DNA of 32,108 bases from Deltaproteobacteria bacterium (GTDB lineage Bacteria > Lernaellota > Lernaellaia > JACKCT01): the NCBI GenBank assembly GCA_020845895.1, contig JADLEX010000033.1, positions 1 through 32,108 on the forward strand, written 5' to 3'. The notes under the pieces are model-generated. The model did no database searches. It was not told the origin of the DNA and worked only from the letters and a program-made list of their open reading frames with translations. Both the position numbers and the translations under genes were made by a program. Below are positions 2,097 through 14,738 of the stretch, piece after piece. The number at the start of each line of letters is the position of its first letter. The stretch's first letter is position 1.

Positions 2097-3065
2097 TCAG
2101 CGCGTGCCCACGCGCGCCCCGGCGAATCCCGGCGCGGAGGCGCGGCGCGTCGCAAACGCCAGCACCACGCCCGCCACGATGACGAGCAACGAGCCCGCCC
2201 ACTGGATGGGGCTCGTGCGTTCGCCGAACATCGGTATCGCCATCACGTGCGTGATGATGATGCCGAGGTACGACAGCGCGCTGATCGTGGCGGCGCGGTC
2301 GAGCGAGTACGCGCGCGTCATGGCGAGCTGGCCGAATCCCGCGGAGATCCCCGTGAGCGCAAGCACGGCAAGACCGGCCGGATCGGGCGTAACCCAAACG
2401 GGAATCGAGAGTGCGATCATCACGATCGCGCCGAAAACGGAGAAATGCAGGACGATCGCTTCGTGACTCTCGTTTTTTCCCAGACGGCGCAGATAGATCA
2501 TCGCCACGCCGTAGCTCATCGCGCCCGCCGTGGAGATCGCCGCGAGCTGAAGCGCCACGTCGAAACTCGGTTTGACGACGAGCGCGACGCCGACGATGGA
2601 CAGAGGGACCGCGAGAAAAACAGCCCGCGACACGCGCTCGCCGATGAGCGGCCAGGAGAGCAGCGCGACGAAGACGGGGCCGGTGGAGTTGAGCGTAACC
2701 GCGTCGCCCAGCGGGATACGCGGCGACGAGAGCGTGTAAAAGATCGCGAGCGCCGAGCCGGTGCCGAAGATGGTGCGCACCCATGCCACGCGTCGGTTTT
2801 CGATGCGCAGCGACGCGCCGCGCAGCATGGCGAATCCCCACGCGATGAGCGCGCCGATCACGAAGCGCGCCGCGGCGACCTCCATCCACGGCACGTGCCG
2901 CGCGCCCATGCGCGTGAAGACGCTCATGAGCGAGAAGAGCACCTGCGCGACCAGCATCCACGCGATGCCGCTGTGCAGCAGCGAGCGCGATTTCGCGGGT
3001 GCCGCGGGAGGCTCGTCGATCAGCGGATCGTCTTCGCGATCCGAAGTGGGCGTTTGGGATTTCAC
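2097..3065 (-). CDS. EamA/DMT-family transporter
   Basis: A 322-residue drug/metabolite-transporter superfamily membrane protein. After a polar N-terminal tail of about 30 residues there are ten hydrophobic segments arranged as two EamA repeats. The first repeat contains the MARFVIGALI-like helix (AAARFVIGAL) and the second ends with SALSYLGIIITHVMAIPMFGE. The GTG start at 3065 lies 8 bases after the galE stop; no strong ribosome site is visible, so translation probably depends on galE. The same frame is open far upstream, but that part overlaps galE and is a shadow. The superfamily includes amino-acid, metabolite and, in eukaryotes, nucleotide-sugar exporters, so a role with the sugar genes is attractive but inferred. 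It is the last gene of the polysaccharide run. Confidence 0.85.
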   Translation of the reverse strand: MKSQTPTSDREDDPLIDEPPAAPAKSRSLLHSGIAWMLVAQVLFSLMSVFTRMGARHVPWMEVAAARFVIGALIAWGFAMLRGASLRIENRRVAWVRTIFGTGSALAIFYTLSSPRIPLGDAVTLNSTGPVFVALLSWPLIGERVSRAVFLAVPLSIVGVALVVKPSFDVALQLAAISTAGAMSYGVAMIYLRRLGKNESHEAIVLHFSVFGAIVMIALSIPVWVTPDPAGLAVLALTGISAGFGQLAMTRAYSLDRAATISALSYLGIIITHVMAIPMFGERTSPIQWAGSLLVIVAGVVLAFATRRASAPGFAGARVGTR

Positions 3066-3073
3066 GGAGGCTC

Positions 3074-4051
3074 TCAGGCGTAGCCGCGCGGATGGTCGCG
3101 GTGCCACTCCCAGGCCGACGCGATGATGTCCTCGATGGACGGGATCTCGCAGGCGAATCCGAGTTCGCGCGCGATTTTTTCGGTCGTCGAAACCAGCTCC
3201 GGCGGGTCCCCCGGGCGGCGCGGCGCTTCGATCGCCGGAATCTCGCGCCCGGTGACGCGCCGCGCCGCGTCGATCACCTCGCGCACGCTGTAGCCCGATC
3301 CGTTGCCGAGGTTGTAGTGGTCGAAGCCGGTTCCGGCCGGCGCGGAGAGCGCGGCGACGTGCGCGCGGGCGAGATCGCGGATGTGGATGTAATCGCGAAT
3401 CGCCGTGCCGTCGCGTGTGGGGTAATCCGTCCCGAAGATCGACACGTGCTCGCGCTGCCCGAGCGGCACCTGGAGCACGAGCGGGATCAAATGCGTCTCC
3501 GGCTGGTGGTCCTCGCCGAGGCCGCCGTACGCGCCGCACGCGTTGAAGTAACGCAAAATCGTGACGCGCAAGCCGTGAATGCGCTGGTACCACGCGAGCA
3601 TCCGCTCGAACATCAGCTTCGATTCGCCGTAAACGCTTTCGGGCGTTTGCGGATCGTCCTCGCGAATCGGCAGCGTTCGCGGCGTGCCGTAGGTCGCGCA
3701 GGTGGACGAAAAGACGATGTGGGGCGTTCCCTCGGCGCGCATCGCTTCGAGCACGCGCAGCCCCGTGGCGACGTTGTTGTCGAAGTAGAGTTCGGGCTTT
3801 TCCATCGACTCGGGGACAAGGCTATGCGCCGCGAAGTGCAACACGCAGGTGACGCGGTGCTCGCGCAGCGCGCGGCGCAGGCGGTCGGTGTCGGCGAGTT
3901 CGCCCTGGACGAATTGCGCGCCGGCTGGAACGGCCTGCCGATGACCGCGCGAGAGGTTGTCGTACACCACGACGTCGCGACCCGCTTCGATCAGCACCTT
4001 CGCGGTGACCGAACCGATATACCCCGCGCCGCCGGCGACGAGCACGCTCAC
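3074..4051 (-). CDS. galE: UDP-glucose 4-epimerase
   Basis: A 325-residue extended short-chain dehydrogenase that interconverts UDP-glucose and UDP-galactose using bound NAD+. The NAD fold has GGAGYIGS (7-14). The catalytic site shows SSTCATYG (115-122) and YxxxK at Y141/K145. RYFNACGA (167-174) and the [10 protein letters not shown] segment are typical of GalE. The length is slightly below E. coli GalE (338). The GTG start at 4051 overlaps the stop of the upstream decarboxylase gene by four bases (GTGA), so the two are probably translationally coupled. The ATG-initiated longer frame to 4141 would extend into the neighbour and add residues before the nucleotide-binding strand, so it was not chosen. 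Confidence 0.93.
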
Positions 4052-5001
4052 TGCGCGGCCGGATTCAGTCGGTCGATTCGGGACCGGAAGTAGTCGAAGG
4101 TGATTTTCAGACCGTCTTCGAGCGATACCTCGGGCTGCCAACCGAGAATTTCCTTCGCGAGCGAGATGTCGGGTTGGCGGACCTTGGGATCGTCCTCGGG
4201 GAGCGGTTTGAACACGATCTCGCTACGGCTCCCGGTGACCTCGATGATCTTCTTCGCGAATTCGAGAATCGTCATCTCGCGCGGATTGCCGAGGTTGACG
4301 GGCAGCGGGTAGTCGCTCATGAGCAGACGGTCGATGCCGCGCACGAGGTCGGAGACATAACAGAACGAGCGCGTCTGCCGGCCGTCGCCGAAGACGGTGA
4401 TCGGCTCGCCGCGCAGCGCCTGGCTGCCGAACGCGGGTACCACGCGACCGTCGCGCAGACGCATGCGCGGACCGAAGGTGTTGAAGATGCGCACGATGCG
4501 CGTCTCGACGCCGTGGAAGCGCTGATAGGCCATCGCGATCGCCTCGGCGAAGCGCTTGGCTTCGTCATAAACGCCGCGCGGGCCGATGGGGTTGACGTTG
4601 CCCCAGTAGTCCTCGGTCTGCGGATGCACCAGAGGATCGCCGTAGACCTCGCTCGTGCTCGCGAGCAGGAACCGCGCGCCCTTGGCCTTGGCGAGGCCGA
4701 GGGTGTTGTGCGTGCCGAGCGCGCCGACCTTGAGCGTCTGGATCGGCAGTTCGAGGTAGTCGATGGGCGACGCAGGCGACGCGAAGTGCAGGATGTAGTC
4801 GAGCGGCCCGTCGAGGTAGATGTAGCTCGTGATGTTGTGCTTGATGAACGTGAAATTCTCGGCGGTGATGTGCGCGATGTTGTCGACCGAGCCGGTCAGC
4901 AAATTGTCCATCGCGATGACGTCGAATCCCTTGGCGACGTAGTAGTCGCACAGGTGCGATCCGATGAATCCCGCGCCGCCGGTGATGAGAATGCGCGGCA
5001 T
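4048..5001 (-). CDS. UDP-glucuronate decarboxylase (UDP-xylose synthase)
   Basis: A 317-residue short-chain dehydrogenase/decarboxylase converting UDP-glucuronate to UDP-xylose and CO2. It has GGAGFIGSH (8-16) and the family-diagnostic [20 protein letters not shown] (72-91). The active-site segment is STSEVYGDP (115-123), with Y145 and K149 in [18 protein letters not shown] and the [16 protein letters not shown] block also match the UXS group rather than dTDP-glucose dehydratases. It lies 3 bases after the UDP-glucose dehydrogenase gene, which makes its substrate, and overlaps galE by four bases. The cytoplasmic UXS domain is full length with no ArnA-type formyltransferase, so the expected product is UDP-xylose rather than the 4-keto pentose. 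Confidence 0.94.
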
Positions 5002-5004
5002 CGA

Positions 5005-6360
5005 TCAGGCGTCCCGCGCGGCGAGCACGGCGGGGCGGCCCACCGAGTAATAGTCGATGCGGTGCCGCCGCGCGATCTCCTCGTCGAAAAGGTTGCGTCC
5101 GTCGATGACGACGCGCGTTCGCAGGTGCGTCGCGATGCGATCGAAATTCGGCTGGCGGTACTCGTTCCACTCGGTGCAGATCACGAGCGCGTCCGCGCCT
5201 TCGAGCGCCTCGTAGTTGTTTTTGTGAAGCTCCACCGCGCCGCTCGTGATCGCGTCCGCGAACACGCCATGCGCGACCTCGAGCGCCGCGGGGTCCGTCG
5301 CACGCACCCGGGCGCCCGCCGCGACGAGGCGCTCGATCGTCACCACCGACGGAGCTTCTCGCATGTCGTCGGTCTGCGGCTTGAACGCGAGTCCCCACAC
5401 GGCGACGGTTCGGCCGGAGAGGTCGTCGCCGAACACCGCGAGGACCTTGTCGGCGAGCCAGTTCTTCTGCAGGTCGTTCACCTCGTCCACCGCCGTGGCG
5501 ATCTTCATGTGGCGACCGGACTCCTCGCCGATGCGGATCAGCGCCTTCACGTCCTTGGGAAAACACGAGCCGCCGTATCCGACGCCCGGGAAGATGAACT
5601 GAAACCCGATGCGCCGGTCGTGGCCGATGCCCTTGCGCACCATGTTCACGTCGGCGCCGACGCGCTCGCACAGCGCGGCGATCTCGTTCATGAAGCTGAT
5701 CTTCGTCGCCAGCATCGCGTTGGCCGCGTACTTGGTCATCTCGGCGCTGCGCACGTCCATGACGAGAATCGGATTCTCATTGCGCACGAACGGCCTGTAC
5801 AACTCGGTCATGACCTCGGCGACGTCGGGGTCGTCGGTGCCGATCACCACGCGGTCGGGCTTGAGAAAGTCGAGCACCGCCGCGCCCTCTTTCATGAACT
5901 CGGGATTCGAGACCACGTGGAAGGGTTTGTTGGTGATCGACGCGATCGTCTCGCGCACCATGTCCGCCGTGCCCTCGGGGACCGTGCTCTTGTCGACGAC
6001 GATTTTCGCGTGGCCCGACTTGTCGTCGCGCAACGTCTCGCCGATTTGCCTGGCGACCTGGAGCACGTACTTGAGATCGGCGCGGCCGTCGTGGTCCTGC
6101 GGCGTGCCCACGGCGACAAAGACGACGCGGCTCTTCAGGACGGCGGGGCGCAGATCAGTCGTGAACGCGAGGCGTCCCTCGGCCTGATTGCGCCGCACTA
6201 AATCCTCGAGCTCGGGTTCGTAGATGGGGATTTCGCCGGCGTTCAGCTTCAGGATCTTCGCGGCGTCCACGTCGACGCACACGACGTCGTTGCCGGTCTC
6301 GGCGAAACACGTGCCCGCGACGAGCCCGACGTACCCCGTACCAATGACGCAAATCTCCAT
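5005..6360 (-). CDS. ugd: UDP-glucose 6-dehydrogenase
   Basis: A 451-residue NAD-dependent enzyme oxidising UDP-glucose twice to UDP-glucuronate. The N-terminal Rossmann domain shows GTGYVGLVAG (7-16). VGTPQDHDG follows at 84-92 and DKSTVPEGT at 123-131. The catalytic cysteine is C266 in GYGGSCFPKD (261-270). The C-terminal nucleotide-binding domain begins near residue 310 (VAVWGLAFKPQTDDMR-like segment). The length is normal. The ATG at 6360 is preceded by GAGGGGAG about six bases upstream. The order ugd, decarboxylase, galE with 3-base and overlapping junctions indicates one operon making UDP-GlcA, UDP-Xyl and UDP-Gal. Confidence 0.96.
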   Translation of the reverse strand: MEICVIGTGYVGLVAGTCFAETGNDVVCVDVDAAKILKLNAGEIPIYEPELEDLVRRNQAEGRLAFTTDLRPAVLKSRVVFVAVGTPQDHDGRADLKYVLQVARQIGETLRDDKSGHAKIVVDKSTVPEGTADMVRETIASITNKPFHVVSNPEFMKEGAAVLDFLKPDRVVIGTDDPDVAEVMTELYRPFVRNENPILVMDVRSAEMTKYAANAMLATKISFMNEIAALCERVGADVNMVRKGIGHDRRIGFQFIFPGVGYGGSCFPKDVKALIRIGEESGRHMKIATAVDEVNDLQKNWLADKVLAVFGDDLSGRTVAVWGLAFKPQTDDMREAPSVVTIERLVAAGARVRATDPAALEVAHGVFADAITSGAVELHKNNYEALEGADALVICTEWNEYRQPNFDRIATHLRTRVVIDGRNLFDEEIARRHRIDYYSVGRPAVLAARDA

Positions 6361-6408: not shown

Positions 6409-7812
6409 CTAGTAGGCGTTCTTGTCGACAAATCCCCGCGCCAGGGTCATCCAGATAATGCGAATGTCCAACCAGAGCGACCAGTTCTCGATGTAGTAGA
6501 TGTCGCACTCGATGCGACGCCGCAGGTCGGTGTTTCCGCGCCAGCCGTTGGCCTGAGCCCAGCCGGTTATACCAGCTTTGACGCGGTGCCTCAACATGTA
6601 CTTGGGGATCTGCGTGCGGAATTGCTCAATAAAAACGGGCCTTTCCGGACGCGGACCCACCAGGCTCATGTGCCCGGCCAGCACGTTGAGGAGCTGCGGC
6701 AGCTCGTCGAGGTTCGTGCGCCGCATGAACGTGCCGATGCGCGTTCGGCGCGGATCGTCCTTGACCGCCCACACCGCTCCGGTGGCCGACTCGGCGTCCG
6801 TGCGCATCGACCGGAACTTCAGGATGCGGAAGGTGCGCCCGTCGAGGCCCATACGCTCCTGGGCGTAGAAGACGGGACCGCGGCTCGTGAGTTTGACCAG
6901 CGCCGCCAGGCCGAGCAGCAACGGGGAAAGAACCACGAGGCCGATGGATGTCGCGACGAGATCGAACGCGCGTTTCACCAAGGCATTCCACCCGTGCATC
7001 GGCGTGTCGCGCAGGCTGACGATCGGCAATCCCTCGAATTCCTCGACCGCCGCACGCAGCGTGACGTACTGATACAGGTCGGGCACGACCTTGACGTCCA
7101 CGAGCTCCTCGTCGAGGGCTTCGAGCACCTTGCGCAAACGATCGGCCGCAAAGAGCGGCAACGCGACGAGCACGAGTTCGATCCGCTCGGCGCGCACGAC
7201 GTGGGCGACGTCCTCCGGCGCGCCGTAAACGGGCCGGTCGAGGACGCGCTCGGGCATGGGTGCGTCGTCCGAAAGGAACCCGATAATTTCAAGGCCGAGC
7301 TCGCGGTGATCGAGCAGGCGCGACGCGAGCCCGCGGCCGAGCTCCCCCGTTCCGACGATCAGCGCGCGACGCACGCCGATACCTCGCCGATACCGCGCGA
7401 TCAGCGCGCGGCGAAACAAGACGTGTGTCGCGATGAGGGTGGCCGTCGAGAGCACGAAGAAGAGACCGAAGACGATACGGCTTGGCTTGTACTGCGCGAG
7501 AAAGAACGTGACGACGACGAAAACGAGAAACGAAATCGCGTGCGCACGCAGGACGAATGCGACCTCGCGGAACAGGCTGGGTACGGTCTTTTCGAGATTC
7601 GCGAGATTGGCGCGGAACACAACCGCCCAGATGAGCGCGACGAGCGCGCCGATCCACGCGTAGGTCGAAAACGCGGGCACGTGCGGCACGCGCAGCGCGA
7701 TGAGCCCGCTTTGGAATCGGATCGGATACGCGACGAGCCAGCATGCCACCACGACGACGAGATCGATCGCGAGATTCAGACTCGACTGGAACTGGCGGCG
7801 GCGACCCAGCAC
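6409..7812 (-). CDS. WcaJ-type polyprenyl-phosphate sugar-1-phosphate transferase
   Basis: A 467-residue polyprenyl glycosylphosphotransferase, the membrane enzyme that starts lipid-linked polysaccharide synthesis by putting a sugar-1-phosphate on undecaprenyl phosphate. Four hydrophobic helices lie in the first 135 residues. A Rossmann-like soluble domain starts at RRALIVGTGELGRG (148-161). A re-entrant/membrane helix is at 285-308. The catalytic sugar-transferase domain has RGPVFYAQERMG (311-322), ILKFRSMRTDAE (330-341), NLDELPQLLNV (367-377), GPRPERP (386-392) and ITGWAQANGWRG (415-426). Donor sugar (glucose, galactose or other) cannot be read from sequence. The start is GTG 7812, one base after the stop of the upstream glycosyltransferase gene. 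The gene is 48 bases from ugd. Confidence 0.93.
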   Translation of the reverse strand: MLGRRRQFQSSLNLAIDLVVVVACWLVAYPIRFQSGLIALRVPHVPAFSTYAWIGALVALIWAVVFRANLANLEKTVPSLFREVAFVLRAHAISFLVFVVVTFFLAQYKPSRIVFGLFFVLSTATLIATHVLFRRALIARYRRGIGVRRALIVGTGELGRGLASRLLDHRELGLEIIGFLSDDAPMPERVLDRPVYGAPEDVAHVVRAERIELVLVALPLFAADRLRKVLEALDEELVDVKVVPDLYQYVTLRAAVEEFEGLPIVSLRDTPMHGWNALVKRAFDLVATSIGLVVLSPLLLGLAALVKLTSRGPVFYAQERMGLDGRTFRILKFRSMRTDAESATGAVWAVKDDPRRTRIGTFMRRTNLDELPQLLNVLAGHMSLVGPRPERPVFIEQFRTQIPKYMLRHRVKAGITGWAQANGWRGNTDLRRRIECDIYYIENWSLWLDIRIIWMTLARGFVDKNAY

Positions 7813-7813
7813 G

Positions 7814-10147
7814 TCATACGCCCATGCGTTCGTGCCCGAACGCGGCGAATCGCTCGTCCACGAACGCGCGGATCTTTCGCGCGAACTCCTCGCGCGCGAA
7901 GGGCTCGGCGTGCGCGCGGATCGCGGCGGGATCGAAACGGCCCGCGTTCGCCTCGAACCAGCGGATGGCGGCGAGCAACGACTCGGCGGTCTGCTCCCCG
8001 AAAAAGACGCCCGTCGCGCCGGGAGGCACCGCTTCGCCCGTTAACGCGCCGCGCACGGTTTCGAGCGCGCCGCCCTTGGCGTACGCGATGACAGGCTTGC
8101 CGCACGCTTGCGCCTCGAGTGGCGTAATGCCGAAGTCCTCTTCGCCGGGGAACAGAAACGCGCGGCAGCCCCGGTAGAGCTCGGCGATTTCGTCGTCGGT
8201 GCACCAACCGAGAAACTCGACATTCGCGGGCGCGCTCGCACGAAGTCGTTCGAGGTCTTCGCCCGAACCCGCGACCTTGAGCGCGAAGCCGCCAATGCGG
8301 GCCGCTTCGAGTGCGAGATCGAGTCGCTTGTACGGCGCGAACGCCGAGACGATGAGATAGTAGTCACCGCTTGCGCCGCCGAGCGCGAAGCGGCCGAGAT
8401 CGACGGGCGGATGAATCACCGTCGCGTCGCGTCCGTAGAATTTGCGGATGCGCCGGGCGACGTGCGCGCTGTTGCAGGTGTATGCGTCCACGCGCGACGC
8501 ACTCGCCGCGTCCCACGTGCGCAGATGGTGCGCGAAGAACGCGATCGCCGCGCGTTTGAGGCGGCTCTTGACACGCGCCGGGCCGAAATACTGATCGTAT
8601 TGATCCCACACGTAGCGCATCGGAGTATGCAGATAGCTGACGTGGCACGTGTCGGGCCCGGTGATGACGCCCTTTGCCACGCAGTGCGACGTCGAAATCA
8701 CGAGGTCGTAGTTGCGAAAGTCGAATTGCTCGATCGCGTACGGGAAGAGCGGCAGGTAGTTGCGATAAGCCGTGGCCGCGCGCGGGAGCTTTTGCACGAA
8801 GCTCGTGAAGATCCGGCGTCGCTCAATCACGGGCGACAATTTGCCGGGCAGGTAGAGCAGCGTGAACAAATCGGCATCGGGCCACAGCTCGCACAGCGAT
8901 TCGAGCACCTTTTCGCCGCCGCGCATGCCCGTCAGCCAATCATGAACGAGCGCGACCCGCGTACGCGGTTTCGCCAACGCGTTCATCACCGCAACCCCGA
9001 TGCTTTCCACTCGCGCCGGCCAGTCGTGGGCGCGGGCCTCGGCAATGCGCGCCGCGACGACCGACGCGTCGCCCGGATCGGCGAGCGCCGCGCGAACCTC
9101 TTCGACAAACGCCTCCGGCGTCGCCGCAAGGCGGCACAGGTCGGGCCGATCGCGATACGCGGCGAAGCTCGGAAGATCGGTCGCCACGATCGGTTTGCCG
9201 CACGCCATGTATTCGTAGAATTTCATGGGAAAGCTGGCGCGCGTCGAGGCGTTATCCGCGAGCGGCAGCAACCCCACATCGAATGCGCGCACGAACGCTG
9301 GAAGGTTCGCGCGATCCTGCCGCCCGGCGAAAACGACGTTCGGTTTGACGCGCAGTTCGCCGAGATCGGTGGACGGATCGCCCCACCCTTCGGGACCCAC
9401 GAGCGCGAGCACGGCATCCGGGAACGCATCGGCGACGCGCGCGAGGAGCGGCAGATCGGTCTTGTAGCCGCTCAGATTCCCGTGATAGCCGATCACCTTG
9501 CGTCCCGCGAATTGGTCGCGGGCGCCGAGCGGCAATTCGGCGCTCGCCGTTTCGAAGTGGGCGACGTCGGCGCAGTTCGGAGAATAGAACACATTCGCCG
9601 CGCGCGCGCGTTTGGCCTCGGCCAGCGCCGGGCGCGTCACGATCACGAGATCGGCGAGCGATTCCAACCGGCGCTCGGCATCGGTCAGCGACGCGACGTC
9701 CACGCCCGGGTTCGCGGCGTAGTCGTCCACGCACTGGTAGATCACCGCCGATTCGCCCAATTGCTTCACGAGTTCAATACCGGTGGGCAGAAACGTCCAC
9801 AGAATCGGCCGCGTCATGCCGAGCTTCGCGGCCCAGCGTTTCACGCGGCGGCGCAGCAGGATGCGGTTGAGCGCGCGCACGAAAGCGAAACGGTGCAGCG
9901 GAATCGTGACGGGCGACAGCACGAAGACGTTGGGCTCGACCTCGCGCGCGCCGGCAAACCATCCGCGCAGCCTCGCGACAATTTTCGCAAAGTCGGACTT
10001 CGACGCGCCGGGGGGACGCAGGCCGGGATTGTTGATGTAGAGGATGCGGTTTCTCGCCGCGAGTCTGTGCATCAGGTGCTGGGCGTTCACCCACAGCGCG
10101 TCCCAGTTCGCGGACGCGACGCACACGATGTCCCGGCCTTCGAGCAT
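7814..10147 (-). CDS. Two-domain (fused) glycosyltransferase
   Basis: A 777-residue protein made of two complete GT-B glycosyltransferases in one frame. Residues 1-390 resemble TuaH-type enzymes: RDIVCVASANWDALW (5-19), YQCVDDYAANPG (137-148), GYHGNLSGYKTDLPLL (220-235), and FYEYMACGKPIVATD (310-324) at the donor site. Residues 396-777 form a GT4 enzyme with the WbaZ/mannosyltransferase-like opening RVALVHDWLTGMRGGEK (397-413), SYLHTPMRYVWDQY (504-517), and the donor motif GEEDFGITPLEAQACGKP (668-685). The link at 385-396 is very short. An in-frame ATG at 8986 (residue 388) could start a separate second protein, so fusion versus internal initiation is unresolved. The acceptor and sugar are unknown. 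A soluble or peripheral location is expected because no membrane helix is seen. Confidence 0.88.
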   Translation of the reverse strand: MLEGRDIVCVASANWDALWVNAQHLMHRLAARNRILYINNPGLRPPGASKSDFAKIVARLRGWFAGAREVEPNVFVLSPVTIPLHRFAFVRALNRILLRRRVKRWAAKLGMTRPILWTFLPTGIELVKQLGESAVIYQCVDDYAANPGVDVASLTDAERRLESLADLVIVTRPALAEAKRARAANVFYSPNCADVAHFETASAELPLGARDQFAGRKVIGYHGNLSGYKTDLPLLARVADAFPDAVLALVGPEGWGDPSTDLGELRVKPNVVFAGRQDRANLPAFVRAFDVGLLPLADNASTRASFPMKFYEYMACGKPIVATDLPSFAAYRDRPDLCRLAATPEAFVEEVRAALADPGDASVVAARIAEARAHDWPARVESIGVAVMNALAKPRTRVALVHDWLTGMRGGEKVLESLCELWPDADLFTLLYLPGKLSPVIERRRIFTSFVQKLPRAATAYRNYLPLFPYAIEQFDFRNYDLVISTSHCVAKGVITGPDTCHVSYLHTPMRYVWDQYDQYFGPARVKSRLKRAAIAFFAHHLRTWDAASASRVDAYTCNSAHVARRIRKFYGRDATVIHPPVDLGRFALGGASGDYYLIVSAFAPYKRLDLALEAARIGGFALKVAGSGEDLERLRASAPANVEFLGWCTDDEIAELYRGCRAFLFPGEEDFGITPLEAQACGKPVIAYAKGGALETVRGALTGEAVPPGATGVFFGEQTAESLLAAIRWFEANAGRFDPAAIRAHAEPFAREEFARKIRAFVDERFAAFGHERMGV

Positions 10148-10200: not shown

Positions 10201-11367
10201 TTACGATTTCAACGACGCGCCATGGCTCCATGCCGCGTGAAACACCTCGGACATGCGCTCGAATGTGAATTCCGTCGTGGCGAGCAGGCGACCGCCTTTG
10301 CCCAGACGCGCGGCGAGATCCGCGTCGTTCAGCATCCTGTCCAGCGCGTCGCGCAGGGCAACGGGGTCCGTGGGATCGACGAGCAGGCCGTTGACGCCAT
10401 CGCGAACGGCCTCGGAGACGCCGCCGGAGTCGCCGCCGATGACGGGCTTGCCGAACGCGCCCGCCTCGACGAAGACGAGGCCGAAGCCTTCGATGTCGTC
10501 GCCCTCGCGACGGCTCGGCATGACGAACACGTCGCACCGAGCATACAGCGCGCGAAGCTCCTCGGGTTCGACGCGCCCGGCGAATACGATCCGATCTGCG
10601 ACGCCGCATTCCCCGGCAAGCGATTCCAACCGCGCGCGATCGGGCCCGTCGCCCGCCACGAGGTAAATCGTGTCGCCGCGCCGCCCGCCCGCGTCGCCCA
10701 GCGCGCGGATCACCGTGTCGAAGCCCTTGCGCGCCACGAGCCGCCCGACCGACAGCACGACACGCCGATTCGCGTGATCGACCCCGCGCCAAGGGTTCGG
10801 CAGCGGTGGGGGATCGTACGCCGAGACGGTGCATCCGAGAGGAATCTTCACGACGCGCGCGCCGGGCTCCATCGCACCCAGGATTTCGACGAGCGGTTCG
10901 GCGATGGTCGCGACGAAATCAGCGTCGCGCAGGATGCGCCGCCACGCGAACGACCACATCGAGTCGCGCGCACGGACGATTTCGGTGCCGTAAGTGAGCA
11001 CGGTGTAGGGCACGCCGAAGAGCCCTCGCCAAATCCAGGCGACCGGCCCGGCGAAGGCGAGGTAGCCGCAGACGATGCGGCCGAAGCGCTTCGTACGCCA
11101 CGCGCGAAAGACCGCGAGGAAGAGCGCGATCTGGCGGAGGATTGGACGCAGCGCTCGCGGGCCGTGCTCGCTCGCGGCGATGCGCGTCAACACGGCCGGA
11201 AAGTCCCGATCGAAGGCCTCGTCGCCCGGCGTGCGGCGCGCGATGACGCGCGTGTTCGGCGTTCGCGCGGCGAGTTCGGAGACGACGGTCTGCACCCCGC
11301 CGATGTCGGGCGGGAAGTCGCGGGCGAGGACCAGTGTCGCTATTGGCGTTTCGCCTTGCTTCGCCAC
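10201..11367 (-). CDS. PimB-like GT4 glycosyltransferase
   Basis: A 388-residue GT-B retaining glycosyltransferase. The N-terminal acceptor domain opens with LVLARDFPPDIGGVQTVV (12-29), typical of PimB/PimA-like and other GT4 enzymes. The donor domain has VLSVGRLVARKGFDTVI (204-220), LVAGDGPDRARLE (236-248) and the EX7E motif E293...E301 in EGFGLVFVEAGAFGKPVIGG (293-312). The start GTG 11367 was chosen because it gives the usual short lead before the first strand and follows GGAAAC weakly. It overlaps the upstream TuaH-like gene by 28 bases, suggesting coupled translation. A longer frame to 11781 would run through that gene and is not credible. The gene probably extends the lipid-linked glycan begun by the WcaJ-type enzyme; its sugar is unknown. 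Confidence 0.9.
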   Translation of the reverse strand: MAKQGETPIATLVLARDFPPDIGGVQTVVSELAARTPNTRVIARRTPGDEAFDRDFPAVLTRIAASEHGPRALRPILRQIALFLAVFRAWRTKRFGRIVCGYLAFAGPVAWIWRGLFGVPYTVLTYGTEIVRARDSMWSFAWRRILRDADFVATIAEPLVEILGAMEPGARVVKIPLGCTVSAYDPPPLPNPWRGVDHANRRVVLSVGRLVARKGFDTVIRALGDAGGRRGDTIYLVAGDGPDRARLESLAGECGVADRIVFAGRVEPEELRALYARCDVFVMPSRREGDDIEGFGLVFVEAGAFGKPVIGGDSGGVSEAVRDGVNGLLVDPTDPVALRDALDRMLNDADLAARLGKGGRLLATTEFTFERMSEVFHAAWSHGASLKS

Positions 11368-12497
11368 GACGTTTCCAGATGACCGAGAATCGTGGAGATG
11401 CGCTTCTCCCACGAATTCTCGCGGGCGATTTCCACGCGCCGCCGCCGGTCTTCCTCGTGGTCGCCGTGCAGGCAGCGCTCGATCGACTCGACGAAGGCCT
11501 GAGCGTCGCCCGCGAGTTCGACGACATGCGCGTAGTCCTCGAGCTCGGGAAGGCGCGTCGCGACCACAGGTTTGCCGGTCGCGAGATACTCGAACAGCTT
11601 CATCGGCAGCACGCCGCGCGTGTAACGGTCGATCTTGTAGGGGATGATGCACACGTCCATGCCGGCGAGGTACGCGGGCAGTTCCTCGATGCTCTTTTTC
11701 CCGACGAAGTGGACGTTGTGATAGTGGATGAAGTGCTCGATTCCGAAGCCCCGATCCGGGCCGACAAACACGAAATTCCACTCGGTGCGCGCCTCGAACA
11801 GGCGCTCCAGCAGGTGATCGTCGAGCTTGTAGTTGAGCGCGCCGACGAAGCCGATCACCGGGCGGCGCAGACCCTCCAGCTCCGGCGCCGGGCTCGCCGA
11901 CGACGCGCGGTGAAAGTGCTCGAAATCGGCCACGTTGGGCACGTGGTGCGTGTTCTTGTTGTGCAGAACCTTGTCCTCATACAGCGAGCGCGCGGTGGTG
12001 AAGACCGCGTCGACGCTCTCGAGCATCTTGCGTTCCATCTGCCGCGTCACCTGAAGCCACGCCCCAGGCATCGCCGAATACTCGTCCACGCAGTCGTAAC
12101 ACGAGAGCGCGGGTTCGAGATGCTGCAGGTAGGGCGCGGCGGTCGGCGGATACAGCCAGAGGATGTAGTCCTTGAAACCGAGTTGCTCCAGCCGTTCCTT
12201 GATGACGGGGGACACGAGCCGATGGTTGATCTCGTTGACCTGCGGAATCTTCTGGCCGAAGGGCACCGTGCCCGGCGGACGCAGCACGTGCACGCCGGAC
12301 GGATCGCGCCAATAGCGGTGCGTGTAGCCACGCCGCCCATCGGCGAGACTCGCGAGCGGCTCGACGTAGAGCACGCGAAAATCGGAAACGAGGCGCGAAG
12401 CGATCTGCTGCTTGTTGGTCCACAGCGGCGCGTCCCAGTCCGCGGTGCTGATCATCACCACGTCCCGAGGCAGATCGAAGTTGGCAAACGGGCCCAT
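11340..12497 (-). CDS. TuaH-like glycosyltransferase
   Basis: A 385-residue glycosyltransferase of the group containing Bacillus TuaH. RDVVMISTADWDAPLWTNKQ (11-30) is followed by LYVEPLASL. The conserved SCYDCVDEYSAMPG block lies near the middle, with GFVGALNYKLDDHLL beginning the donor domain and KLFEYLATGKPVVATRLPE near the sugar-nucleotide site. This layout matches the N-terminal half of the fused enzyme at 7814-10147, so the two look like paralogues. The ATG at 12497 has GGAGGGGG about 4 bases upstream, the strongest ribosome site in the sugar cluster, consistent with it being the first gene. The acceptor and donor are not predictable. Confidence 0.88.
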   Translation of the reverse strand: MGPFANFDLPRDVVMISTADWDAPLWTNKQQIASRLVSDFRVLYVEPLASLADGRRGYTHRYWRDPSGVHVLRPPGTVPFGQKIPQVNEINHRLVSPVIKERLEQLGFKDYILWLYPPTAAPYLQHLEPALSCYDCVDEYSAMPGAWLQVTRQMERKMLESVDAVFTTARSLYEDKVLHNKNTHHVPNVADFEHFHRASSASPAPELEGLRRPVIGFVGALNYKLDDHLLERLFEARTEWNFVFVGPDRGFGIEHFIHYHNVHFVGKKSIEELPAYLAGMDVCIIPYKIDRYTRGVLPMKLFEYLATGKPVVATRLPELEDYAHVVELAGDAQAFVESIERCLHGDHEEDRRRRVEIARENSWEKRISTILGHLETSWRSKAKRQ

Positions 12498-12597: not shown

Positions 12598-13266
12598 TTA
12601 TCTTTTCACGACATCTCGCCAGTCGAAGTCGCAATACCACACCTCGCCGACGTTGATCCACCGCTGCTTGACGAGAATGGTGTCCACGCTGGCGCTGGGC
12701 ACCAGGTTGCGGTTGATATAGCGCACGAGCACGGTGCCGTAGTAGACCTTGTTCTTGCTGGGCTTGCCGCCCTTTTTACGGTCGATTCCGGTATCGGCGA
12801 GCGACTTGTCGGTGCTGGGGATCTTGGCGTCCTGGACCGCGCGCACGGCCTCTTCCTTGGGCATCAGGTCACGGTCGGTCTCGCCGGGCGCGGGAGTCGG
12901 CGTGGGCACCGCGCCGTCCTCGGGAATGCTCGTGCCCGGCAGGTCGAGGTCGGAGGGCGGCGGCGGGTTCTCGTCCACCTGGCAGACGACCACGGCGAAG
13001 TTTTCGATCTGCACCGCGCCGCCGTATTTTTCGGTATCCATGAGAAAATCGATGCGGCGATTGGGCACCACCATCAGGCTTACCGGCGCGTAGTGGTGCC
13101 AGATCACGAGCTTGTTGAAGTCGTTCGCCGTTTCGCACAGCTCGTCGGAAAGATCCTGGATCTTCTTGGTTTCCTTGCGGCGATCGCAGGACGCGGCGCC
13201 GACCAGCGACATGGCCAGCAGCGCCACGATCCCCACCACCAGCGCCCGTGTCCATCGCGTGTTCAT
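12598..13266 (-). CDS. Lipoprotein of unknown function with Pro-rich linker
   Basis: A 222-residue predicted lipoprotein. The signal peptide has two arginines, a hydrophobic core (9-22) and a loose lipobox GAAS-C27. Asp is at the position after the lipidated Cys, which in E. coli would favour inner-membrane retention; whether that rule applies here is unknown. A Pro/Asp-rich linker spans about 98-128 (PPPPSDLDLPG, PTPTPAPGETD). The C-terminal part contains VLVRYINRNLVPSASV and ends VKQRWINVGEVWYCDFDWRD, a beta-strand pattern like NTF2-fold proteins. The next lipoprotein upstream ends with a similar QRW...G..WY motif. The ATG at 13266 has GGGGAAG upstream and lies 24 bases after that gene. No known family was recognised. 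Confidence 0.82.
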   Translation of the reverse strand: MNTRWTRALVVGIVALLAMSLVGAASCDRRKETKKIQDLSDELCETANDFNKLVIWHHYAPVSLMVVPNRRIDFLMDTEKYGGAVQIENFAVVVCQVDENPPPPSDLDLPGTSIPEDGAVPTPTPAPGETDRDLMPKEEAVRAVQDAKIPSTDKSLADTGIDRKKGGKPSKNKVYYGTVLVRYINRNLVPSASVDTILVKQRWINVGEVWYCDFDWRDVVKR

Positions 13267-13290
13267 GGCTTCCCCGTCCTTCGCTTCCGG

Positions 13291-13770
13291 TCAGTAGGCA
13301 TCGGGGCGCAGATACCAACGCCCGCCGGACTTTTCCCACCGCTGGCTTTCGTGGATTCGCGCGTACCACAAGAAATAGATGCGGCCCCAGATGTCGATAT
13401 CCACATGCGCCACCGCGCCGTTGGGCTCGATCTTGATGTCGTTCACGCGGTACTTCAGCACGATCTCCCGCGAGAAGTCGTTCTTGCGCATGAGCGACGC
13501 GTAAATCGCGATGAAATCGGTCTGATCCTTTTCGTTCTCGAAGTACGGGCGAATCTTCCCGCGCGTGATGTACGCCGTGAGCTTCTGGTCCTCGAGCCCG
13601 GACCACAGGCCGTCGACCCGGCCGCGCAGATCCTGCGCGCGCACCGACGCCTCGTCCTCGGGCATCGCGGCCACGGCTTCGTATTCGTCGAGACGCAGCT
13701 TCTCGTTCTTGAGGGCGCACCCGGCCATCGCCACAAGGACGAGGCCGACCACCGCCATACGCCGGATCAT
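13291..13770 (-). CDS. Small lipoprotein, possible NTF2-like fold, coupled to lgt
   Basis: A 159-residue predicted lipoprotein with a short signal peptide and a clear lipobox VAMAG-C18. The mature part is charged and helical at first (residues 20-60) and then shows alternating strands ending IYFLWYARIHESQRWEKSGG and RWYLRPDAY. The QRW-G-RWY ending resembles SnoaL/NTF2-like and ketosteroid-isomerase-like domains, but this is an impression only. Its ATG overlaps the lgt stop (ATGA at 13770-13767), so its translation is probably coupled to the lipidating enzyme. A second in-frame ATG at residue 5 could also start it. Function unknown. Confidence 0.82.
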   Translation of the reverse strand: MIRRMAVVGLVLVAMAGCALKNEKLRLDEYEAVAAMPEDEASVRAQDLRGRVDGLWSGLEDQKLTAYITRGKIRPYFENEKDQTDFIAIYASLMRKNDFSREIVLKYRVNDIKIEPNGAVAHVDIDIWGRIYFLWYARIHESQRWEKSGGRWYLRPDAY

Positions 13771-14738
13771 CGTTTCTTCTTTCCGCCTTTTTTCGTGGAC
13801 CGCGCCCGGTCGCCGCCCCCGTTCGGTTTTGCGGCGGGCGCGCCGGCCGGAATCATCTTAGAAACGGCCTGCGTCTTTCGCAACGTCGCCCAGAGGACGG
13901 CCGACACGCCGAACAGGAGAAGGCTCACGACCTGGCTCTCGGAGAGCCGAAACGCGTAAAGCCCCGGCCCGGTCTCGAAAAGCGCCTCCGTCGCGAGCAG
14001 CAGCTTCCACAGACCCGTGGCGGACGCGGCGGTAAGCCCCGCCGTCGCGCTCACGTGGAAGAGCGTCATGAATCCGCGTGGATCGGCGCGGAAAAACTCG
14101 AGGCCGATGCGCGCGAGGCCGTAGAGCACCAGAAACGACGCAATCACCTGTCCGTGAAAGCGCTTGCGCGGACGCACCACGAAATACAGGAACAGGCAGA
14201 TCGCGTAGGAGAGAATCGATTCGGCGAACTGCGTGGGATAGAGCGGCACGCCGGAGAGCCCGACGGACTGCGGCGGGAAGGTCACGCCGAACGGAAAATC
14301 GGCCGGGCAGGTCTTGCCGTGGCAGCAGCCCGCGAGAAAACACCCGATGCGCGCCGTGCCGAGGCCAAACGCGATGCCGGGAGCGACGAAGTCCGAATAC
14401 ATGGCGAGCGGGAGTTTCTGACGACGCAGGTACGCGAGGCCGGCGATCGCCCCGCCGATGAGCCCGCCGTAATACACGAGCCCGCCCTCGCGCACGTTCA
14501 GGATCTGCAGGGGGTTGTCCTTGTAGTGATCCCAAAATACGAAGCAGTGGAAAAGTCGCGCGCCGATCATCGACAGGATGACCACGTAGATGGCCATGTT
14601 GCTGATGTGCTCGGGGTCGCCGCCCGCTTCCTTGACCTGTCGGCTCGCGATCCAGATCGCGCCCAAAAACGCGCAGGCCAGCATGACGCCGTACGCATGC
14701 ACGGGCACGCCGAAGATTGTGAACAGGACCGGATGCAT
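13767..14738 (-). CDS. lgt: Prolipoprotein diacylglyceryl transferase
   Basis: A 323-residue polytopic inner-membrane enzyme that attaches diacylglycerol from phosphatidylglycerol to the lipobox cysteine of prolipoproteins. Recognisable features are VPVHAYGVML (11-20), IGARLFHCFVFWDHY (58-72), REGGLVYYGGLIGG (83-96) and the signature region GTARIGCFLAGCCHGKTC (127-144), where the E. coli-type GRIGNFIN is replaced by RIGCFLAGCC. R217 in EFFRADPRG (214-222) fits the conserved C-terminal arginine. Compared with E. coli Lgt (291) there is an extra segment around 228-265 and a Lys/Gly-rich tail (303-323). The ATG 14738 shares one base with the lspA stop (TGATG). It is also overlapped by the next lipoprotein start, forming a tight chain. 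Confidence 0.94.
   Translation of the reverse strand: MHPVLFTIFGVPVHAYGVMLACAFLGAIWIASRQVKEAGGDPEHISNMAIYVVILSMIGARLFHCFVFWDHYKDNPLQILNVREGGLVYYGGLIGGAIAGLAYLRRQKLPLAMYSDFVAPGIAFGLGTARIGCFLAGCCHGKTCPADFPFGVTFPPQSVGLSGVPLYPTQFAESILSYAICLFLYFVVRPRKRFHGQVIASFLVLYGLARIGLEFFRADPRGFMTLFHVSATAGLTAASATGLWKLLLATEALFETGPGLYAFRLSESQVVSLLLFGVSAVLWATLRKTQAVSKMIPAGAPAAKPNGGGDRARSTKKGGKKKR

Follow-up and report, generated by a model that had tools for sequence, protein, structure and literature searches.

The window (the whole stretch of 32,108 nucleotides that was analysed) holds a surface-polysaccharide cluster, whose features are collected in Table 1. One of its genes carries two complete glycosyltransferase (GT) modules in a single open frame, as defines a dual-module glycosyltransferase, and the fusion in this 777-residue gene is real. 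A first-pass annotation had claimed the frame at 7814-10147 and gave no strand; the frame is borne out and lies on the minus strand. The two full GT-B enzymes described there (residues 1-390 and 396-777) are also found, with borders at 1-392 and 398-777, and the very short link without a stop between them consists of five residues.

The nature of the two modules was determined from domain and homologue matches. Pfam places Glycos_transf_1 in two stretches of the chain, corresponding to two glycosyltransferase C-lobes, Glyco_trans_1_2 at residues 235-382 and Glyco_transf_4, the GT4 N-lobe, at residues 410-586. Full-length homologues match residues 1-388 as TuaH-like and 391-777 as WbaZ-like, and these results agree with the subgroups claimed earlier (TuaH-like and GT4/WbaZ-like). 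Module 2 matches the solved structure of WbaZ-1 (PDB 2f9f) with an E value of 8.9e-18 and has the E-x7-E motif (E670, E678), as expected of a WbaZ-like GT4. The score of module 1 with the NCBIfam TuaH model (NF047676) is 94 bits, far under the equivalog cut-off of 550 bits; module 1 is classed as TuaH-like and not as TuaH, and since the cut-off is missed, the name tells neither its donor nor its acceptor.

The presence of WcaJ, UDP-glucose dehydrogenase, UDP-glucuronate decarboxylase and further GTs in the operon points to the assembly of an undecaprenyl-linked glycan. The genes annotated in the window showed no ABC-transporter-dependent pathway with a WbdD-type terminator. The polysaccharide operon closes with a gene for an EamA-type transporter (2097-3593, minus strand), which is also present, further downstream, in G001, a genome described below. 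Two adjoining frames between the Lgt and GT genes (12598-13857, minus strand) have about 55% identity in another genome, G002, and gave no Pfam match.

Table 1. Features of the window, and fusions of TuaH-like modules at other loci (prefix L).
Feature	Position	Strand	Remarks
Fused dual-module glycosyltransferase gene	7814..10147	-	777 aa; ATG at 10147, stop at 7814-7816
Module 1, TuaH-like GT-B glycosyltransferase, residues 1-392	8972..10147	-	ends in helix 376-392
Linker KPRTR, residues 393-397	8957..8971	-	follows the last module 1 helix and precedes the first module 2 strand; from secondary structure of the model (helix 376-392, strand 398-402) and junction comparison
Module 2, WbaZ-like GT4, residues 398-777	7817..8956	-	E670/E678 (E-x7-E)
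T396 (ACG), at the position where unfused WbaZ-like genes start	8960..8962	-	junction comparison
Internal ATG (M388), proposed second start	8984..8986	-	within helix 376-392
GT4 glycosyltransferase, upstream of fused gene	10201..11430	-	start approximate
TuaH-like paralogue of module 1	11340..12497	-	about 33% identical; also conserved in operon of relatives
WcaJ-type undecaprenyl-phosphate glucose phosphotransferase, next downstream	6409..7812	-	TIGR03023, 501 bits, cut-off 410.75
Nucleotide-sugar (UDP-glucose type) dehydrogenase	5005..6360	-	TIGR03026, above cut-off
UDP-glucuronate decarboxylase-like (UDP-xylose synthase)	4048..5001	-	best PDB match UDP-glucuronic acid decarboxylase 1, 374 bits
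NAD-dependent epimerase/dehydratase	3074..4141	-	PF01370; exact start uncertain; conserved in relatives
TuaH-like + GT4 fusion, class f101	L062:3164-5623		
TuaH-like + GT4 fusion, class f101	L063:4412-6733	-	
TuaH-like + GT4 fusion, class f101	L064:669-3155	-	
TuaH-like GT module, then DUF218 domain, one frame	L066:2294-4354	-	one of three families
TuaH-like GT module, then DUF218 domain, one frame	L075:1855-3720	-	one of three families
TuaH-like GT module, then DUF218 domain, one frame	L076:2220-4091	-	one of three families

The phylum is probably FEN-1099, also named Ca. Lernaellota or Podoxiota (PMC13248872, PMC11382960). Seven of its genomes, which appear to be metagenome assemblies, were compared: the source genome, two of the same family (G001 and G002) and four of two sister families (G003-G006). 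The fusion was conserved in all three genera of the family examined. In G001, of a second genus, it lies in one frame with 61% protein identity over 766 residues (2-767), and in G002, of a third genus, the end of module 1 and the whole of module 2 share one frame, so the junction is fused there as well. Retention of the junction frame at this identity in a second genus, and again in a third, is more than chance would give. The module 1 frame of G002 is broken at about residue 250; because WcaJ, the TuaH paralogue and the epimerase on the same contig are broken too, this is likely an assembly error, and the frame breaks of G002 are likely indel errors. At this locus (L054, G002:C26), several operon genes are split into two or three frames.

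In the sister families (G003-G006), the TuaH-like and WbaZ-like halves are separate genes in different frames, and the stop codon of the TuaH-like gene overlaps the start of the next GT gene, the overlap being ATGA in G003-G005 and GTGA in G006. The operon of G004 (TuaH paralogue, GT4, TuaH, WbaZ, WcaJ, UGD, UXS, epimerase) equals that of the window gene for gene, the sole change being that the two enzymes are separate. The earlier proposal to look for split and fused homologues in close genomes was answered on the fused side by the close relatives, G001 and G002; split genes were found only in the sister families. The same order of TuaH, WbaZ and WcaJ recurs as separate genes in two Chloroflexota genomes (L046, L051). 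In G003 and G006, a second WbaZ-like gene is located between the TuaH-like and WbaZ-like genes (L057:10454-11623 and L058:7164-8327, respectively), whereas neither the window nor G004 or G005 has this extra copy at the locus.

In the tree of module 1 (24 rows; G002 was left out because its broken module is too short), the fused proteins group together as sister to family f3, with a support of 100/99 for the fused group, and the tree of module 2 (41 rows) gives the same placement with a support of 98/96. With the fused proteins together beside f3 in both, the trees set a single fusion event on the stem of the source family, which explains the two placements. This event would have joined in frame two neighbouring genes whose stop and start codons overlapped, and removed both that stop and the start of the second gene.

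We then considered whether the modules are intact. Among the columns at least 95% conserved in the other TuaH-like rows, which include paralogues and other fusions, 1 of 28 is changed in the fused members (P217), and none of the 34 WbaZ-like columns of the same conservation is changed. An initial alignment (A1) was dropped, since MAFFT put the C-lobes of unfused TuaH-like rows onto module 2, and the rows of later alignments were picked to prevent this misplacement. AlphaFold2 with alignment A2 gave the structure prediction of the full chain that had been asked for: two GT-B modules with a mean pLDDT of 85.4, a pTM of 0.60 with unsure relative placement of the modules, a helix at 376-392, a linker at 393-397 and a strand at 398-402. 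The two GT-B folds are thus predicted to be joined via the last helix of module 1. In a Foldseek search of the PDB, the best whole-chain match was 8qoy, a capsule multienzyme, and the next matches span about one module each. The proposed fusion of two GT-B enzymes is backed by relatives, trees, conserved residues and the structure model, and it is probably functional.

Inspection of the junction bears on two other explanations. The end of module 1 (W376, R379, then the helix) can be aligned in all seven phylum genomes; past it, unfused proteins continue to a stop, and the fused ones enter R-V-A-(L/I)-V-H-D within a few residues. The codon at the ancestral start site reads ACG in the fused gene of the window, CCG in that of G001 and GCG in that of G002. 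It could be argued that a stop codon was lost or the frame shifted through an error of sequencing or assembly, as the source genome is in draft form (171 contigs) and several operon genes are frame-broken in the G002 assembly. However, G001 is a separate assembly from another genus and shows the same in-frame junction at 61% identity, the junction of G002 is fused too, and the replacement of the ancestral start codon in 3 of 3 fused genes makes such an error extremely improbable. The ATG at 8986 is present within the frame as had been noted, encoding M388, and had been offered as the start of a separate second protein. It lies 8 codons upstream of the ancestral start site and is unmatched in G001 or G002. 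Since the ancestral start is lost in all three fused genes and this ATG is not conserved, module 2 is unlikely to be translated separately, and with no stop between the modules, module 1 cannot be made alone; the separate second protein is disfavoured on these grounds. An internal start could also give a WbaZ-like protein alongside the fusion: GGGG, a weak ribosome-site-like sequence, is located 8 nt upstream of the ATG, and the anti-Shine-Dalgarno duplex energy of -5.2 kcal/mol falls inside the range of ordinary gene starts (-1.8 to -9.7, from a handful of starts within the window). Nevertheless, the same lack of conservation and loss of the ancestral start apply, and the ATG sits in the last helix of module 1, so we regard this product as unlikely.

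One module of the fused chain could also be non-catalytic, helping the other as a scaffold for binding or membrane docking. Module 1 is without the first glutamate of E-x7-E, with A304 at the acid position, and specialised modules are possible in dual-module proteins. However, this glutamate is also missing in the unfused TuaH-like rows inspected, and module 1 retains E312 and nearly all other conserved positions, which makes a scaffold role improbable.

The reading we prefer, and hold to be likely, is that the gene encodes one two-module enzyme of single origin, most likely adding two sugars, probably consecutively, to the lipid-linked glucose of WcaJ. The protein would be cytoplasmic and presumably membrane-associated, with two catalytic modules. 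The acceptor would be undecaprenyl-diphosphate-linked glucose made by the neighbouring WcaJ, and both modules would add sugars to this product or its extension, probably in succession. The fused chain would fix the module ratio at 1:1 and hold both active sites beside one lipid-linked acceptor. Two consecutive sugar additions are likely, although adjacent genes need not add adjacent sugars, which is a point against the consecutive order. Channelling of two successive additions, raised in the first-pass annotation, is plausible. We infer here the activity of both modules, the order of additions, the sugars and donors, and any kinetic benefit.

Scoring the two best matches of each genome in a sample of 386 revealed no further TuaH-WbaZ fusion, and a pattern-based scan of the genome contigs gave no additional unbroken one. 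Long open frames in G062, G199, G153, G291 and G272 were rejected as TuaH-WbaZ fusions, having no TuaH-like half. In class f101, of another phylum, each of the seven genomes examined has a TuaH-like module within an open frame 774-829 residues long, and a TuaH-like module followed by DUF218 occurs in three families (Table 1). TuaH-like transferases might form a recurrent fusion hub, joined independently to the next-acting enzyme (WbaZ-like, another GT4 or DUF218), so that the partners reveal the order of sugar additions. We put this forward as a doubtful possibility; if true, fusion partners would show the order of sugar addition in uncharacterised glycan loci.

The fused and split orthologues, found in the same operon of sister families, form a natural matched pair, suited to asking whether lipid-linked glycans are assembled at a different rate or with different fidelity once two GTs are joined. 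The fusion also speaks for joint action of the two neighbouring genes and helps to assign steps in a candidate phylum that, to our knowledge, has no cultured member. Within the surface-polysaccharide cluster, it is a clear-cut example of enzymes fusing, and fusions of this kind are known from other systems.

Dual-module GTs are a well-known kind, represented by WbdA and KpsC, and the TuaH-like and WbaZ-like pairing was not found in the literature searched; searches for TuaH together with WbaZ gave no match, and those for glycans of Ca. Lernaellota gave no paper. The sister families and Chloroflexota (L055-L058, L046, L051) have orthologous or homologous halves in the same order at a WcaJ locus, but as two polypeptides. 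In the class f101 fusions (L062-L064, the three genomes inspected), the same kind of N-terminal module is fused to a downstream GT neighbour, but the C-terminal partner is a different GT4 and a separate WbaZ-like gene follows. The capsule multienzyme of Actinobacillus pleuropneumoniae serotype 3 (PDB 8qoy) likewise has several modules in one chain, but the chain is longer, with 11% identity and a TM of about 0.4-0.5. WbdA, the mannosyl polymerase with two GT4 modules from E. coli O9/O9a and Klebsiella O3, likewise joins modules that differ in specificity in a single chain, which works on an undecaprenyl-linked glycan (PMC11231755). It is, however, a polymerase in an ABC-transporter pathway, whereas the present gene adjoins WcaJ and has TuaH-like and WbaZ-like modules, and nothing about it points to polymerase activity. 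In KpsC, a dual Kdo transferase, a helix similarly connects two GT-B modules, which make few contacts besides according to the published model (PMC10148158). KpsC differs in GT family, lipid acceptor and sugar, and the link in the present protein is the last helix of module 1 and five residues. The two modules of KpsC, which have this connecting helix in common, face the same side, an arrangement that, its authors suggest, assists with membrane-bound acceptors (PMC10148158), and by analogy the two active sites of the fused protein could face one side of the membrane.
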